DNA from: an uncultured Truepera sp.
GTDB taxonomy: Bacteria; Deinococcota; Deinococci; Deinococcales; Trueperaceae
NCBI GenBank assembly: GCA_902806425.1
Contig: CADCWP010000316.1
Coordinates: forward strand, 1 to 48,311
Direction of reading: 5' to 3'
DNA length: 48,311 bases
A program made the translations under genes and the position numbers. The notes beneath the pieces were generated by a model, which was given only the letters and a program-made list of their open reading frames with translations, searched no databases and had not been told where the DNA came from. Positions 666-21,623 of the stretch are shown piece after piece (position 1 is the first letter of the stretch; each line of letters starts with the position of its first letter).

Positions 666-3099
<2,434 letters not shown>

Positions 3100-3100
<1 letters not shown>

Positions 3101-3624
3101 TGCCGCGCGTCTGGCAGTTCGGCGACTCCATCAACACCGACGACATCCTGCCCGGGAAGTACGCGCCGTTTATGGTCGGTGAGGACGAGTTTCACCGCTA
3201 CGCCTTCGCGCACCTGCGCCCCGAGTTCGCCGCCGAGGTGAGACCCGGTGATCTGCTCGTCGGCGGGCGCAACTGGGGTCTCGGCTCGTCGCGCGAGTAC
3301 GCGCCTCAGGCGCTTAAAACGCTCCAGGTGGGCGCAGTTATCGCGGAGTCGTTTGCGCGCATCCACTTCCGCAACCTGCTCAACCTGGGCATTCCGGCGT
3401 TTACCTCGGAAACGGTGCCGGACGCGCTGCGAGATGGGGACACCGTTTCGTTCGACCTGGCAGCCGGAACTATAGCGCGCGGCGACGAGGTGTTTGGCCT
3501 CGAGCCGCCCCCCGCATTTCTCCAAGAAGCTCTCAAAGAAGGCTCGATCTTGGCCTTTTACCAAAAATACGGGCGTTTTCCGGGCGAAGGGGCCAAGCGA
3601 GCGCCGAACCGACAGCCATCTTGA
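3100..3624 (+). CDS. lysU: homoaconitase small subunit
   Basis: MPRVWQFGDSINTDDILPGKY and GGRNWGLGSSREYAPQALK motifs; ATG overlaps the lysT stop (TGATG). Confidence 0.9.
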
Positions 3625-3641
3625 TACTGAAAGGAACCACC

Positions 3642-3809
3642 ATGTTAGAAACCATCGAAACCCCTTACGGCAGCGTCGAAGTCGACACCCAGACCGCCGA
3701 ACTCGGTGAACTCCTGGTCACGGACGACGGCACCGAGCTTGAGGTGGTCGGGCTCGACCCGCTACGCCTCGAGCCCGCTCCAGAGGAAGATGAGGATTGG
3801 GGCGAATGA
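3642..3809 (+). CDS. lysW: LysW alpha-aminoadipate carrier protein, cysteine-less variant
   Basis: 55 aa; [26 protein letters not shown] is the LysW C-terminal signature; lies between lysU and lysX; no Cys codons. Confidence 0.9.
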
Positions 3810-4687
3810 CCCGAGTTTTAGAGCGTCCGCTAGACGTAGCGCCCCGTATCGCCATCGTCTACGACCGCTTGCGTCCGGAAGAGCGGCTGCTCTTCGAGGC
3901 GTTCGAGCGTCGGAATGTGCCGTTTGACAAGCTCTACGCCCCGAAGTTCACGTTCGATTTCAGTCAGCCGCAAGTGCCGCGCTACGATGTGGTGTTGGGG
4001 CGCTGCGTCTCACAGACGCGCGGGCTGGCGATAAGCCGCATTTTCAGCGCGCTCGGGGCGCGCGTCCTCAACGCGCCCGAGGTGATCGAGACCTGCGGTG
4101 ACAAGCTCGCCACCAATGCGGCGCTCGCCCGCGCGGGTGTCCCGACGCCGCGCACCGGCGTCGCCTTTGATACCGAGTCGGCGCTCTCGCTGGCCGAGCG
4201 CTTCGGTTACCCGGTCGTGCTCAAGCCCACCGTTGGCTCGTGGGGCCGGATGGTCTCGCGGCTCAACGATCAGGACGCGCTCGAGGCCGTTCTCGAGCAC
4301 AAGGAGACGCTTGGCGGGCCGCAACACAAGGTCTTTTATCTGCAAGAGTTCGTCCAGAAGCCCGGACGCGACATCCGCGCGTTTGTCGTCGGGGATGAGG
4401 TTGTGGCGGCGATTTACCGCACGTCGGCGCATTGGGTGACGAACACGGCGCGGGGCGCGGTGGCGTCGAACTGCCCGCTTTATGACGAACTTGCTGAGGT
4501 TTCTTTGCGGGCGGCTCGAGCCGTCGGCGGCGGGGTGCTGGCGGTCGATCTGCTCGAGAGCGAACGCGGTTTACTCGTCAACGAGGTCAACCACACGATG
4601 GAGTTTCGCAACTCGGTGACGACAACAGGGGTGGATATTCCGGCCTTAGTGGTGGGTTATGCTTCGTCGCTACTCGTGCCTTCTTGA
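3806..4687 (+). CDS. lysX: LysW-aminoadipate ligase LysX (ATP-grasp)
   Basis: [43 protein letters not shown] and [15 protein letters not shown] overlaps the lysW stop (ATGA). Confidence 0.92.
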
Positions 4688-4890
4688 TGGACCTCCTGTA
4701 ACCACCCCTCCTTGACAAGCTTTTCTTGAAGCGCTTCTTCGACAAACTTTGCTAGCGTTTTTTGCTCTTTCGCTGCACATGTTTTGGCTTCTTGATGAAG
4801 CCTGCGGTCGAGCCGGACAGTTACTCTTATAAACCCAGAATACAGAAAAATCGGGTCGCGGAGAACCAAGTTCGGCAGTAAGATGTTCAA
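4657..4890 (-). CDS. small ribbon-helix-helix-like protein (possible orphan antitoxin or regulator)
   Basis: [37 protein letters not shown] resembles an RHH fold; real start may be downstream of 4890; convergent overlap with lysX 3' end. Confidence 0.45.
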
Positions 4891-5401
4891 GGTGACTCAG
4901 GGTGTTAACGAAGAACTGCTCGACCAAGTTGATGACCATGATGTGGTTGTGGGCACAGTTTACAGAGGTGAAGCGTGGCACCGAAACGTTCGCTGGGTTC
5001 GTGTTGTCAACGCTTTTGTAAAAGACTCGCAAGGTGAACTCTGGATTCCTACACGTTCTCGGCAGAAGCGTATGTTTCCGCTATGTCTGGACATGAGCGT
5101 GGGAGGGCACGTCGGCGCAGGTGAAAGCTATGAGCAGGCGTTTCTCAGAGAGGCGCGAGAAGAACTCAATGTACCTGAGTTGTTAGTCTATAAAGAAGTG
5201 GGGTATCTGAATCCGACAAGGCACCACGTGTCTGCATTTATGAAGGTCTACGAAATTTGTTCGGACGAGACTCCCCTTTACAATCCGAATGATTTTGTGG
5301 GCGGCGAATGGCTGCGTCCAAGAAGGTTGCTTGAAAAGATTCGGCAGGGCGTTCCTGCCAAGGGCGACCTCGAGCAACTTATCTGCATTTTCTATACTTG
5401 A
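4883..5401 (+). CDS. NUDIX hydrolase
   Basis: GGHVGAGESYEQAFLREAREELNV is a NUDIX box; IPP-isomerase-like N-terminus. Confidence 0.85.
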   Translation: MFKVTQGVNEELLDQVDDHDVVVGTVYRGEAWHRNVRWVRVVNAFVKDSQGELWIPTRSRQKRMFPLCLDMSVGGHVGAGESYEQAFLREAREELNVPELLVYKEVGYLNPTRHHVSAFMKVYEICSDETPLYNPNDFVGGEWLRPRRLLEKIRQGVPAKGDLEQLICIFYT

Positions 5402-6457
<1,056 letters not shown>

Positions 6458-6489: not shown

Positions 6490-6930
6490 GTGGCCGACGG
6501 TGCCTTCGTAACGCCCGCGCACGTCCTCGAGCACCTCTCCGCAGCGCAGGCCAAAGCCAGTCCAGGCGGCGCACCTCACAACCTATACGAAGAGCTTTGG
6601 CATACAGACTTTTGGCAGCGCCTCATTCTCTCAGTCATCCACGGCGAGCCGGTCTCATTCCCCGAGCACGCGGCGGAGGGTTGGCCGAAAGACAATGAAA
6701 CACTGACGGAAGGGGCGTGGGAAGGGCTCGTCAGTCGGTTTTTGCTCGACTTGGAGGCAGCGGCGGCGGTGGCGGGCTCGGAGGACCTGGAGCGAATCGC
6801 AGGGGACAAAACCGTTCGAGAGCACCTGGAGAGCGTTGCCGGACACAACGCCTACCACTTCGGACGGATGGTTTTGCTGCGGCAGCTCTTGGGTCTCTGG
6901 CCACCACCGTCAGGCGGGGACACCTGGTAA
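6490..6930 (+). CDS. DinB-family protein (tandem copy 1)
   Basis: YEELWHTDFWQ and VAGHNAYHFGRMVLLRQLLG shared with the following copies. Confidence 0.8.
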   Translation: MADGAFVTPAHVLEHLSAAQAKASPGGAPHNLYEELWHTDFWQRLILSVIHGEPVSFPEHAAEGWPKDNETLTEGAWEGLVSRFLLDLEAAAAVAGSEDLERIAGDKTVREHLESVAGHNAYHFGRMVLLRQLLGLWPPPSGGDTW

Positions 6931-6993
6931 GACAGTTTTAGGACGGGTTGTGACCGCTTTCGGCGCTAGCATCCTTGTAGAGGAGGCGAAGCG

Positions 6994-7421
6994 ATGACCA
7001 TCTGGCAGCACCTCTTTATCGACGACCTCGAGTACGCGCCCGCGGCGGATATCCTTGCTGGTTTGACGCCCCTTCAGGCCGGGACGCGCCCCAAGGGAAT
7101 GCACAGCATCTTTGAGGAGCTTTTCCACGCGGCGGGCTGGCAGCAGGTGATGCTGGTGAGCGCGAAGGGCGGGGCGATGGGCGAACCCGATGCGACTGGC
7201 CCTCGACCCCCGGGCCGCCCAACGAGCGTGCCTGGAGGGATTTAGTAACGGGTTTTTTAGTGGGGTCTGAGGAAGCTGCGGTGCTCGGGAGCCAGACCGA
7301 ACGGCTGGGCGAGGTGCTGCCAGAGGGCCGCACCGCTCGGGAACGGCTACAGCTGCTCGCGGTGCATAACGCCTATCACATGGGTAAAATCGTCGCTCTG
7401 CGGCAGGTTTTAGGTTTCTAG
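6994..7421 (+). pseudogene. DinB-family protein (tandem copy 2), frameshifted
   Basis: MTIWQHLFIDDLEYAP...HSIFEELFHAAGWQ in one frame; NERAWRDLVTGFLVGSEEA...LLAVHNAYHMGKIVALRQVLGF in another; switch near the C-rich run at about 7205-7220. Confidence 0.75.
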
Positions 7422-7472
7422 AAACCCCCGCCCACTGACAGCGGCGCGTTATGAAGTTCTAGGGAGGCGAAG

Positions 7473-7943
7473 ATGAACAACTGGAGACATCTCTTTCTCA
7501 CCGGCGAGTTCGCGCCGCGCGCCCATATCTTAAGTGGGCTCACATTGGAGCAGGTCAGCACCCGCCCCACCGGAGCCCCACACAGCATCTTTGAGGAGCT
7601 GTGGCACGCCGCCGAGTGGCAGCGGCTCACGTTAGAACGCGACGAAGCGGCGCTCGAGCGTTGGGAGGGGGGCGTGCAATTTCCGCCCCGACCAGCCCCC
7701 GAGGATGAGGCGGTCTGGCAGGCGTTGGTACGCTCTTTTCTCTCCGATTCGGAACGCGCGGTCCGGCTCTCTCAGAACGAGGCTTGGCTCGAGTCGGATG
7801 AAACGGAATTATCGGGGTTTACCTGGGGCAACGCGCTCGAGTGTTTGGTTGTCCACAGCGCCTACCATATGGGCAAGATCGTCCTCTTGCGGCAGCTTTT
7901 GGGCGTCTGGAGCCCACCGCCTGAAAATGCTGAAGCCCCGTAG
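7473..7943 (+). CDS. DinB-family protein (tandem copy 3)
   Basis: HSIFEELWHAAEWQRL and VVHSAYHMGKIVLLRQLLGVW. Confidence 0.85.
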   Translation: MNNWRHLFLTGEFAPRAHILSGLTLEQVSTRPTGAPHSIFEELWHAAEWQRLTLERDEAALERWEGGVQFPPRPAPEDEAVWQALVRSFLSDSERAVRLSQNEAWLESDETELSGFTWGNALECLVVHSAYHMGKIVLLRQLLGVWSPPPENAEAP

Positions 7944-8014
7944 AGGAACTTTCCGCCCTGTCAGCGCGCGGACTGGTCCATACAGAGGTTCACCGCACCA
8001 CCTAAGATAAACGT

Positions 8015-8473
8015 ATGACGATCTTCCAACGGTTGTTTACCGATCTAGAGTTCGCGCCCCGCGATCACATCGTCACGGTGCCTTTTGCGTACGTCGGCGT
8101 GCAACCCGGAGCCGCCCATCACAGCATCTTTGAAGAGCTTTGGCATGTTACCAAGTGGCAGAGCTTCGTGCTGCGGATGGTCCGTGGGGAGGTCGTTCGC
8201 AGCGACTACGACGAAGAGGGGTTTCCTGACGAACAAGTCCCTGAGGGTGAGAACGCTTGGCTCGAGTTGGTATCGGAGTTTCTTGCCGGTTCCGCCGAAG
8301 CCGTCGCCCTTGCGGGGGATGAGGACGCTCTGGCCGTTTCGTTAGGCGACGGCCTTACGGTGCGGGAGCGGCTCGAGCTGCTCGCCGTCCACAACGCCTA
8401 TCACCTCGGTAAGATCGTTTTGCTGCGGCAACTGCTCGGCATCTGGGTCCCGCCTCTGGATGATGCTGCTTAG
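8015..8473 (+). CDS. DinB-family protein (tandem copy 4)
   Basis: HHSIFEELWHVTKWQ and LLAVHNAYHLGKIVLLRQLLGIW. Confidence 0.85.
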   Translation: MTIFQRLFTDLEFAPRDHIVTVPFAYVGVQPGAAHHSIFEELWHVTKWQSFVLRMVRGEVVRSDYDEEGFPDEQVPEGENAWLELVSEFLAGSAEAVALAGDEDALAVSLGDGLTVRERLELLAVHNAYHLGKIVLLRQLLGIWVPPLDDAA

Positions 8474-15371: not shown

Positions 15372-16175
15372 ATGATCATCGTCAAGGTGGGTGGTTCACT
15401 TGGTATCGACTACGCCGCTCTCTGTGAAGACGTGGCCGCCCTCTATAAAGAGGGCCGAAAGCTCATCGTGGTTCACGGTGGCAGCGCTGAAACGAACCGC
15501 GTCGCCGCAGCGCTAGGCCATCCGCCCAAATTCGTCACCAGCCCGTCGGGGTACACAAGCCGCTTCACTGACCGAAAGACGCTCGAGATCTTCGAGATGG
15601 TCTACTGCGGTGTGCAGAACAAAGGTCTGGTGGAGCGGTTACAGCGTCTGGGGGTCAACGCCGTCGGGCTTTCCGGTCTGGACGGGCGCATCTTTGAAGG
15701 TAAACATAAAGATACCGTGCGGAGCGTTGAAGACGGCAAGGTCAAGGTGCTGCGTGGCGACCATACCGGCACCGTCGAGCGGGTCAACACCGGACTGTTG
15801 ACGCTGCTTTTAGATAACGGCTACCTGCCCGTGCTGACGCCACCCGGCTCGAGCTATGAGGGCGTCGCTGTCAACGTCGACGGTGACCGGGCGGCGGCGG
15901 CGTTGGCGGTCGCGTTTGGGGCCGAGGCGCTGCTCTTGCTGTCGAACGTCCCCGGACTGTTGCGCGATTTTCCCGATGAGGCGTCGCTTATCGCAGAGAT
16001 TCCGGCAGGGGAGGTTGAGGCGTATCTCGAGTTTGCCCACGACCGGATGAAGAAGAAGGTCTTGGGCGCTGCCGAAGCGGTGCGGGGCGGCGTCAAGCGG
16101 GTGGTGTTTGGGGACGCGCGCGTTTCAAAGCCGGTCACGGCGGCCCTCGCCGGACGCGGTACAGTAGTTCGGTAG
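15372..16175 (+). CDS. lysZ: LysW-aminoadipate kinase
   Basis: MIIVKVGGSLG, VVHGGSAETNRVA, NVDGDRAAAALAVAFGAEALLLLSNVPGLL are amino-acid kinase/LysZ motifs. Confidence 0.9.
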   Translation: MIIVKVGGSLGIDYAALCEDVAALYKEGRKLIVVHGGSAETNRVAAALGHPPKFVTSPSGYTSRFTDRKTLEIFEMVYCGVQNKGLVERLQRLGVNAVGLSGLDGRIFEGKHKDTVRSVEDGKVKVLRGDHTGTVERVNTGLLTLLLDNGYLPVLTPPGSSYEGVAVNVDGDRAAAALAVAFGAEALLLLSNVPGLLRDFPDEASLIAEIPAGEVEAYLEFAHDRMKKKVLGAAEAVRGGVKRVVFGDARVSKPVTAALAGRGTVVR

Positions 16176-16631: not shown

Positions 16632-17831
16632 ATGTCGCAAACGCAGACGAGAACACAAGAAATTCTGGCTCGAGACGCCGAGCACCACACCGGCCTCTGG
16701 CACCCGGACATCGTCTTTACCCACGGTGACGGCGTCAAGCTCTACGACGCCGAGGGCAACGCGTACTTGGACTGTATGGCGGGAATCGCGGTCGCCAGCG
16801 TCGGTCACGGCAACAAACGCCTCGCCCGGGCGCTCGCCGAACAGGCCGAAAAGCTCATCATCGTCTCCCAAGCGCACGGTAACGACACGCGGGTGCGGTT
16901 CTACGAAAAACTCTTTGCGGCTCTTCCCGAGTCGCTCGGTCTGACGCGGGTCTTTATGGCGAACTCGGGCAGCGAGGTCAACGAGGCAGCCCTTAAATGG
17001 GCGCGGGTCGCTACCGGACGGGGCGGCTTCGTAGCGGCCAAACGCGGCTTTTCAGGCCGGACGCTCGGGGTGCTGGGGCTGACCTGGGAACCCAAATACC
17101 GCGAGCCGTTCGAGCCGCTGCCCTACGAAACGACCTTCATCGGTTTTAACAACATCGGCGAGCTGGACGCGGCGATTACCGAGGAGACGGCGGCGGTATT
17201 TTTGGAGCCCGTCCAGGGTGAGGGCGGGATGCACCCGGCGGACCCGGCGTTTTTAGAGGCAGCCAGGGCCTTGACCCGCGAACGCGGCGCGCTGCTCATC
17301 ATGGACGAGGTGCAGTCCGGCGTCGGGCGCACCGGTAAATTTCTGGCTTCGGAGCACTTCGGTGTAGCGCCCGATATGGTGACGCTCGCCAAAGGTCTGG
17401 GTGGCGGCGTCCCTATCGGCGCGCTGCTGATGACGGACGAGGTGGCCGCGAAGATGCCTGCGGGCGGCCACGGTACGACCTTCGGCGGGAACGCCCTGGC
17501 GTCGGCGGCTGCGGTGGCGGTTTTGGAGGAGTTCGAGGCGCGCAATCTCGTTCAGAACGCCGCCGAAGTCGGAGCGTACTTTCAGGAGCGGTTGCGCGCG
17601 CTAAACGCCCCGCAGATTCGCTCCGTGCGGGGCATGGGCCTGATGATCGGCGTCGAGTTTAGGGGCAAGGTCGCGCCTATTGTCGCCGGGTTACGTGACG
17701 CTCGCGTGCTGGTCATCAACGCCGGGGCGACGGTCATCCGCTTTGTGCCGCCACTGATCATCACCAAAGGGGAGGTGGATGAGGTGGTGAGGCGGCTTGG
17801 GGTGGTGCTCGAGCGCAACAAGCCGAGCTAA
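16632..17831 (+). CDS. lysJ: LysW-aminoadipate semialdehyde/acetylornithine-type aminotransferase
   Basis: [65 protein letters not shown] motifs. Confidence 0.9.
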
Positions 17832-20537: not shown

Positions 20538-21623
20538 GTGATCGACGCCGCTACCCTCCTCGAGCGCACCCTAACCATCTCCAGCCCGTCGGGTTCCGAA
20601 GTCGGGGTCGCCCACTTTTTGGTCTCGCAGATGGGGGCCTTTTGCGACGAAGCCTTCGTCGACGCCGCGGGAAACGCGGTCGGGCGCATTGGCACGGGGC
20701 CGGTGGGCGTCTACGTTTTGGGTCATATCGACACGGTTCCGGGCGATATTCCGGTGCGGGTGGAGGGCGGCGCCCTCTACGGGCGCGGTGCGGTCGATGC
20801 CAAGGGGCCGTTCTGCGCGGCGGTAGCGGCTGCGGCGTCGCTTTCCGATGCCGTAAAGGACGCGCTTACCCTGACCCTGATCGGCGCGGTTGAGGAGGAA
20901 GCGCCCACGAGCAAGGGTGCTCGCTACGCGCTGCTAACGTACCCCAAGCCCGATTTTGTCATCGTTGGCGAACCCTCCGGTTGGGACGCCCTGACCTTAG
21001 GCTATAAGGGGCGCTTGGTTCTAAAGCTGAGCCTCGAGAAACCCAACTTCCACAGCGCCGGAGACGACACGACCGCCGCCGAAGACGCCGTGACCTGCTG
21101 GGGGCGGGTCAAAGCTTGGGCTGAAGGCGTTTCGGGTACGGGCTTCGACCGGGTGCAGGCGGCGCTGCAAAGCTTGAACACCGACTCCGACGGCCTCACG
21201 CAGAGGGCGCAAGCCGTGATCGGGCTGCGTTTGCCGCCCGCGTGGCCGCCCGAGCGGGCCGAAGGGGAGCTGCTCGCGGCGCTGGGCTCCGGGTTCCCCG
21301 GTCTGAGAGCAGAGGTTCTCGGGCGCGAGCAGCCCTACCGCGGCCCTAAAGACACCGCGCTCACGCGGGCCTTTCGCGTCGCCATACGCGCAGCGGGAGG
21401 CGTTCCCCGCTTTAAACTCAAAACCGGCACGGCGGATATGAACGTGGTCGCGCCGCATTGGAACGTGCCGATGCTGGCCTACGGCCCCGGCGATTCGGCC
21501 CTGGACCACACGCCCCATGAGCACGTCGAACTCGCTGAACTCGAGCGGGCCGTGGGGGTGCTCGCCGCCACTTTCGAGGGGCTTGCTTTTGCACCGCACG
21601 TCAGGGCCAACCGAAGCGGATAA
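20538..21623 (+). CDS. lysK: LysW-lysine hydrolase (M20 family)
   Basis: VLGHIDTVPGDIPVRVEGGALYGRGAVDAKGP, VEEEAPTSKGAR, KTGTADMNV; GTG start. Confidence 0.88.
   Translation: MIDAATLLERTLTISSPSGSEVGVAHFLVSQMGAFCDEAFVDAAGNAVGRIGTGPVGVYVLGHIDTVPGDIPVRVEGGALYGRGAVDAKGPFCAAVAAAASLSDAVKDALTLTLIGAVEEEAPTSKGARYALLTYPKPDFVIVGEPSGWDALTLGYKGRLVLKLSLEKPNFHSAGDDTTAAEDAVTCWGRVKAWAEGVSGTGFDRVQAALQSLNTDSDGLTQRAQAVIGLRLPPAWPPERAEGELLAALGSGFPGLRAEVLGREQPYRGPKDTALTRAFRVAIRAAGGVPRFKLKTGTADMNVVAPHWNVPMLAYGPGDSALDHTPHEHVELAELERAVGVLAATFEGLAFAPHVRANRSG

Follow-up and report, generated by a model that had tools for sequence, protein, structure and literature searches.

LysW is a model amino-group carrier protein, and a zinc-ribbon core is taken to be one of its defining traits; the canonical protein has four zinc-binding cysteines, arranged in two Cys-x-x-Cys knuckles. 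A lysW gene in the DNA of an uncultured Truepera sp. encodes a protein with no cysteine at all, raising the question of whether a LysW stripped of its zinc site can still serve as the carrier for lysine synthesis. We analysed this gene within the window, by which we mean the whole stretch of 48,311 nucleotides (contig CADCWP010000316.1), and compared it with its relatives. In the literature open without subscription, we found no statement that LysW can lack cysteines, and LysW is not among the proteins analysed in a 2012 survey of lysine genes in Deinococcus-Thermus, Truepera included (PMC3356886).

The lysW locus and its partner genes

Read directly from the sequence, lysW begins with ATG at 3642 and ends with TGA at 3807-3809. 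A Shine-Dalgarno-like GAAAGGA lies immediately 5' of the gene, which is flanked by lysU and lysX, and the stop codon overlaps the lysX start codon as ATGA at 3806-3809. The open reading frame and its translation bear out the initial annotation of this DNA, which had noted a LysW without a single Cys codon in its 55 residues. That annotation had also aligned the two knuckles with ETPYG and TDDG; the loss of the cysteines stands, but the replacements are better written as CPECG to TPYG and CEDCG to TDDG (Thermus to window), with each knuckle also giving up one residue. The partner genes that it described as kept (lysX, lysY, lysZ, lysJ and lysK) are all present by profile score, together with lysS, lysT and lysU. 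The features of the locus, all on the forward strand, are as follows (profile scores in bits, against cut-offs).

690..1835, +: lysS, homocitrate synthase (TIGR02146, 447.7 vs 413.6)
1832..3100, +: lysT, homoaconitase large subunit (TIGR01343, 535.9 vs 385.7)
3100..3624, +: lysU, homoaconitase small subunit (NF010629, 291 vs 229)
3642..3809, +: lysW, stop included, predicted 55-residue cysteine-free alpha-aminoadipate carrier of type A, defined below (TIGR01206, 60.8 vs 53.2; PF21344, 34.1 vs 27)
3660..3671, +: lysW codons 7-10, TPYG, aligned with the first zinc knuckle of Thermus LysW (CPECG), here lost and shortened by one residue
3720..3731, +: lysW codons 27-30, TDDG, aligned with the second zinc knuckle of Thermus LysW (CEDCG), likewise lost and shortened by one residue
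3792..3806, +: EDWGE tail of LysW (E51, D52, W53, G54, E55), invariant in type A
3806..4687, +: lysX, alpha-aminoadipate-LysW ligase (TIGR02144, 374.5 vs 275.6), with the GSWGR motif present
5420..6457, +: lysY, ArgC-family reductase (TIGR01850, 367.6 vs 233.6), also downstream of lysX in relatives
15372..16175, +: lysZ, [LysW]-aminoadipate kinase (NF010659, 466.9 vs 223)
16632..17831, +: lysJ, [LysW]-aminoadipate semialdehyde transaminase of the ArgD family (TIGR00707, 428.1 vs 410; top match NF042418 LysJ at 469, under its strict cut-off of 700)
20538..21623, +: lysK, [LysW]-lysine hydrolase (NF003367, 428 vs 363)

The order lysW-lysX-lysY is common to genomes with cysteine-free and with four-cysteine LysW. 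Between lysX and lysY, the window holds a short HicB-like open reading frame (4660-4890, reverse strand) and a NUDIX/IPP-isomerase-like gene (4883-5401, forward strand). Between lysY and the remaining lys genes lie DinB_2-like genes in tandem (6490-8473, forward strand), three of which were scored by Pfam; a further copy at about 6994-7421 on the same strand appears frameshifted, with the frame switching near 7230.

Family membership and spread in Trueperaceae

The window protein passes both the equivalog cut-off of TIGR01206 (NCBIfam) and the gathering cut-off of PF21344 (Zn_ribbon_LysW), the latter match starting past the first knuckle. It ends in EDWGE, lies with lysX and the other carrier-dependent lys genes, and is predicted to adopt the LysW beta-hairpin fold. 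The four zinc ligands expected of a zinc ribbon with CxxC pairs are absent, and we therefore class the protein as a LysW carrier and not as a zinc-binding ribbon. Nor does it belong to a Zur-regulated C+/C- pair, as LysW occurs in a single copy both in the window's genome (G000, an assembly 92% complete) and in a second genome of the same genus (G037, complete in a single contig of 3,260,398 bases). A canonical, cysteine-containing LysW elsewhere in the genome was the circumstance that, according to the initial annotation, would overturn its reading; searches of G000 and G037 with the protein, TIGR01206 and PF21344 returned no second LysW, and the only copy in G037 is likewise cysteine-free.

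Across 39 Trueperaceae genomes, 27 encode a cysteine-free LysW of the kind found in the window, which we call type A, five encode a four-cysteine LysW and seven have none detectable. All 27 cysteine-free orthologues sit in a lysW-lysX context, so the lack of cysteines is neither chance nor sequencing error. A complete LysX was found in none of the seven LysW-less genomes (a partial LysX of 315.8 bits in G005, a fragment at a contig edge in G006 and weak ATP-grasp matches only in the other five), so these represent assembly gaps or loss of the pathway. Relatives of the window protein score 50-59 bits on TIGR01206, some type A ones falling just below the cut-off, at 50-53 bits. The first knuckle of type A proteins reads T-[PD]-x-G and their second [TS]-D-[DE]-[GS], each one residue below zinc-knuckle length. 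Residues T7, G10, D15, D28 and the EDWGE tail are invariant in 25 aligned type A sequences; P8 occurs in 24, residue 27 is always T or S, residue 29 is always D or E, and 23 of the 25 have Tyr or His at position 9.

Two further open reading frames in type A genomes, L062 (G010 C97:38367-38489) and L069 (G012 C1:1807046-1807171), were considered as substitute LysW proteins and rejected for want of EDWGE. Both encode 66-aa Cys4 zinc ribbons that resemble LysW, with the ends DDYGES and DEWPR, perhaps acting as other carriers. A weak second LysW-like match in another genome (G029 C41:29579-29737; 49% identity, one in-frame TGA) is possibly a decayed copy.

The lysW codons are under purifying selection, with a median pN/pS of 0.31 over 300 gene pairs (pN 0.107 and pS 0.539 between G000 and G037). 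Neither G000 nor G037 has dapB, a gene of the alternative DAP pathway, and most genomes with cysteine-free LysW lack it too. In an earlier survey that covered Truepera radiovictrix, Nishida and Nishiyama recorded dihydrodipicolinate reductase in D. proteolyticus only among the Deinococcus-Thermus examined (PMC3356886). We did find dapB in G010 and in genus g9 (G018, G019-G022); some Trueperaceae may thus have the DAP pathway alongside LysW, or instead of it (G018). The window LysX is 72-77% identical to the LysX of the five four-cysteine relatives and 57-77% identical to that of cysteine-free genomes outside the genus. It is thus as close to the former as to most of the latter, or closer, which indicates that the partner enzymes do not sort according to the form of LysW.

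A second cysteine-free type in other Deinococcota

Whether the loss of cysteines is specific to a clade was a check that the initial annotation had proposed. The loss is family-wide in Trueperaceae, and a second cysteine-free type occurs in other Deinococcota; ribosomal protein L31, described below, shows the same loss. This second type, type B, was found in seven Deinococcota genomes outside Trueperaceae: in family f3, in genus g27 of Thermaceae (G061, G062) and in two genomes of the Meiothermus group (G066, which is M. granaticius, and G072). Type B proteins (L136, L141, L160-L162, L167, L168, L172 and L178) resemble type A in having no cysteine, an EDWGE tail and a place in the lys operon; they differ in their full-length knuckles, NPE[TS]G and DDETG, and have 57 aa. 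Residues shared among them, EFEV and PP, mark type B as a separate lineage on sequence grounds. The Deinococcus LysW has been reported as 57 residues long (PMC2669436), a match to type B compared by length alone.

Four-cysteine LysW proteins occur in Thermus, Calidithermus, other Meiothermus and families f2 and f4. The LysW relatives of Chloroflexota, Armatimonadota and archaea have four or five cysteines, as do all non-Deinococcota proteins among the best 80 matches in the genome collection. No LysW relatives were found in viral contigs; in the plasmid collection, the type A query gave two weak Streptomyces matches only and the type B query none. On TIGR01206, a type B protein scores 99.3 bits, against 82.6 for a four-cysteine Trueperaceae LysW. 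Cysteines are therefore not a defining property of the LysW equivalog as modelled, and the NCBIfam model probably already includes sequences like type B. The phenomenon is thus broader than the Truepera case and to some extent already implicit in the family model.

In the RpoB tree, four-cysteine genomes G002, G025 and G026 lie at the base of Trueperaceae, and G024 and G028 lie near Truepera; both the LysX and the RpoB tree place some four-cysteine genomes within type A. Multiple origins of type A were considered and set aside, as monophyly of type A is not rejected (AU p 0.145 for the LysX tree and 0.173 for the RpoB tree). On the simplest reading, the cysteines were lost once within Trueperaceae, and type B arose separately. 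Type B itself falls at three places on the RpoB tree, and the LysX of the Meiothermus type B genomes groups with other Meiothermus LysX. The LysX of M. granaticius is 98.6% identical to that of G073 (four positions differ) and 98.9% identical to that of G081, both Meiothermus genomes with a four-cysteine LysW, whereas the lysW genes are just 64-65% identical in DNA. Near-identical LysX enzymes are therefore paired with either carrier, in effect a natural swap experiment, although one that concerns type B and not type A. In DNA, lysX of M. granaticius (L172) is 95.6% identical to that of G073 and G081 (L179, L187) and the neighbouring lysU 83-84%, which points to recombination at lysX.

We think it probable that the zinc site of LysW is dispensable and was discarded in Deinococcota by two structural routes, through shortened turns in Trueperaceae and through full-length NPETG and DDETG segments in f3 and some Thermaceae, with type B lysW passing on its own from lineage to lineage and the enzymes left in place. 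Such an exchange would show that the zinc site lies outside what the enzymes recognize.

An open reading frame at the LysV position, just 5' of lysW (L172, L179, L032, L160, L156), encodes two Cys4 ribbons, the first of them LysW-like. It was seen in Thermaceae, f2 and f3, and is absent next to lysW in the Trueperaceae genomes looked at.

Fold, carrier function and the cause of the loss

The closest characterized system is the LysW of Thermus thermophilus (PDB 3wwl, 3wwn, 5ein, 5eio), which the window protein resembles in gene neighbourhood, length class, EDWGE tail, sequence (about 62% identity) and predicted fold. It differs from the Thermus protein, with its four zinc-binding cysteines, in having knuckles that are free of cysteine and one residue shorter. 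Structure prediction, another check proposed in the initial annotation, returned a fold like that of zinc-bound LysW: AlphaFold2 gave the same five strands with a mixed alignment (pLDDT 90) and with type A rows only (pLDDT 88). Confidence is lower for the tail (block means of 60-63), as expected of a flexible segment. By Foldseek against the PDB, both models match LysW structures best (3wwn, 3wwl, 5eio, 5k2m, 3vpb), with TM values of about 0.6-0.7; AlphaFold2 may nevertheless recall the LysW fold from knowledge of the family, even when given type A rows alone. We found no cysteine-free LysW in the PDB, where all solved LysW structures that we located contain cysteines.

Taking these data together, we consider it very likely that the window protein is a working LysW whose zinc knuckles are replaced by tight, metal-free hairpin turns; its metal-free state, mode of recognition and carrier activity are what we infer. 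In characterized LysW proteins, the substrate is conjugated to the last Glu of EDWGE (PMC10433800). In the window's pathway, LysX would join alpha-aminoadipate to the gamma-carboxyl of this C-terminal Glu, LysZ, LysY and LysJ would modify the LysW-bound substrate, and LysK would free lysine. The globular part would retain its beta-hairpin fold, with TPYG and TDDG forming metal-free turns, each shortened by one residue, so that strand packing rather than zinc would provide stability. The enzymes would read the tail and other LysW surfaces, not the zinc site, and so would need no change. The zinc-independent fold, still docking with its enzymes, that the initial annotation put forward is thus supported as a prediction by the EDWGE tail, the operon, selection, the predicted fold, the lack of another LysW or of dapB, the similarity of LysX and the Meiothermus swap.

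Zinc therefore appears, from sequence and modelling, not to be needed for the carrier's job. Because a whole clade has cleanly lost the site and retained the pathway, natural proteins can be used to test directly what zinc does. The questions are which contacts are recognized by the five enzymes, whether zinc contributes stability only, as would be useful in thermophiles, and whether Cys4 sites are being shed across the small proteins of Deinococcota. The predicted carrier would be metal-free and insensitive to redox state, which may ease enzyme work.

The last of these questions bears on a tentative account of the cause, which is compatible with a working, metal-free carrier: the loss may have been selected, for zinc economy or for protection of Cys4 sites, in mesophilic or oxidatively stressed Deinococcota and in several small proteins at once. 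L31 lacks its Cys4 site in all 15 cysteine-free-LysW genomes in which it was found, against 8 of 13 four-cysteine genomes, and all five genomes with a Cys4 L31 keep a Cys4 LysW (hypergeometric 0.013, phylogeny ignored). In the cysteine-free-LysW genomes tested, the first knuckle of L31 shows the same one-residue shortening as LysW, with CGCGN becoming CDGE in Truepera, and L33 has three of its four cysteines or none; the Thermus and f4 genomes tested retain all three sites. Zinc-saving C+/C- switches are established for ribosomal proteins (PMC9825181). The coupling is not strict, however, as G002, G025, G026, f2 and some Meiothermus lack the L31 site yet have a Cys4 LysW, and the comparison is based on two control proteins with relatedness ignored. 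Moreover, a type B genome (L160) retains the eight cysteines of LysV, the double zinc ribbon adjoining lysW; the loss of Cys sites is therefore selective.

We regard as unlikely a re-ligated site, with a metal held by Asp, Glu, Thr, His or Tyr residues of TPYG, DxD and TD[DE]G. The invariance of T7, D15 and D28, the acidic residue always found at position 29 and the Tyr or His at position 9 would suit such ligands, and the type B knuckles also bear Asp, Glu and Thr. The loss of one residue per knuckle, however, breaks the CxxC-like spacing; no His is conserved, LysW is acidic throughout, and beta turns typically have Asp and Gly at positions like these. That the gene is decaying or has a new function, with lysine made in another way, is very improbable: the disappearance of a structural metal site often signals decay, and a few related genomes have dapB (G010, genus g9), but lysW is under purifying selection with EDWGE invariant and the operon intact across many genera, and G000 and G037 offer neither another LysW nor dapB.

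Loss of metal ligands from a zinc ribbon has precedents. The archaeal chromosomal proteins Cren7 and Sul7 are zinc ribbons that have lost metal chelation and are stabilized by hydrophobic packing, and a zinc-bearing relative of Cren7 matches LysW chain 5k2m_E (PMC5906684); unlike LysW, they bind DNA, and their function has changed. The window LysW is also akin to the zinc-free C- ribosomal proteins (L31, L33 and L36), which are orthologues or paralogues of zinc ribbons that have lost their Cys ligands and kept their function. They differ in being parts of the ribosome, often as a regulated C+/C- pair, whereas LysW is an enzyme-substrate carrier present here as the sole copy. For L33, a cysteine-free form stands alongside a three-cysteine form in G037, G029 and G066, and in the window's genome only the cysteine-free form was found.
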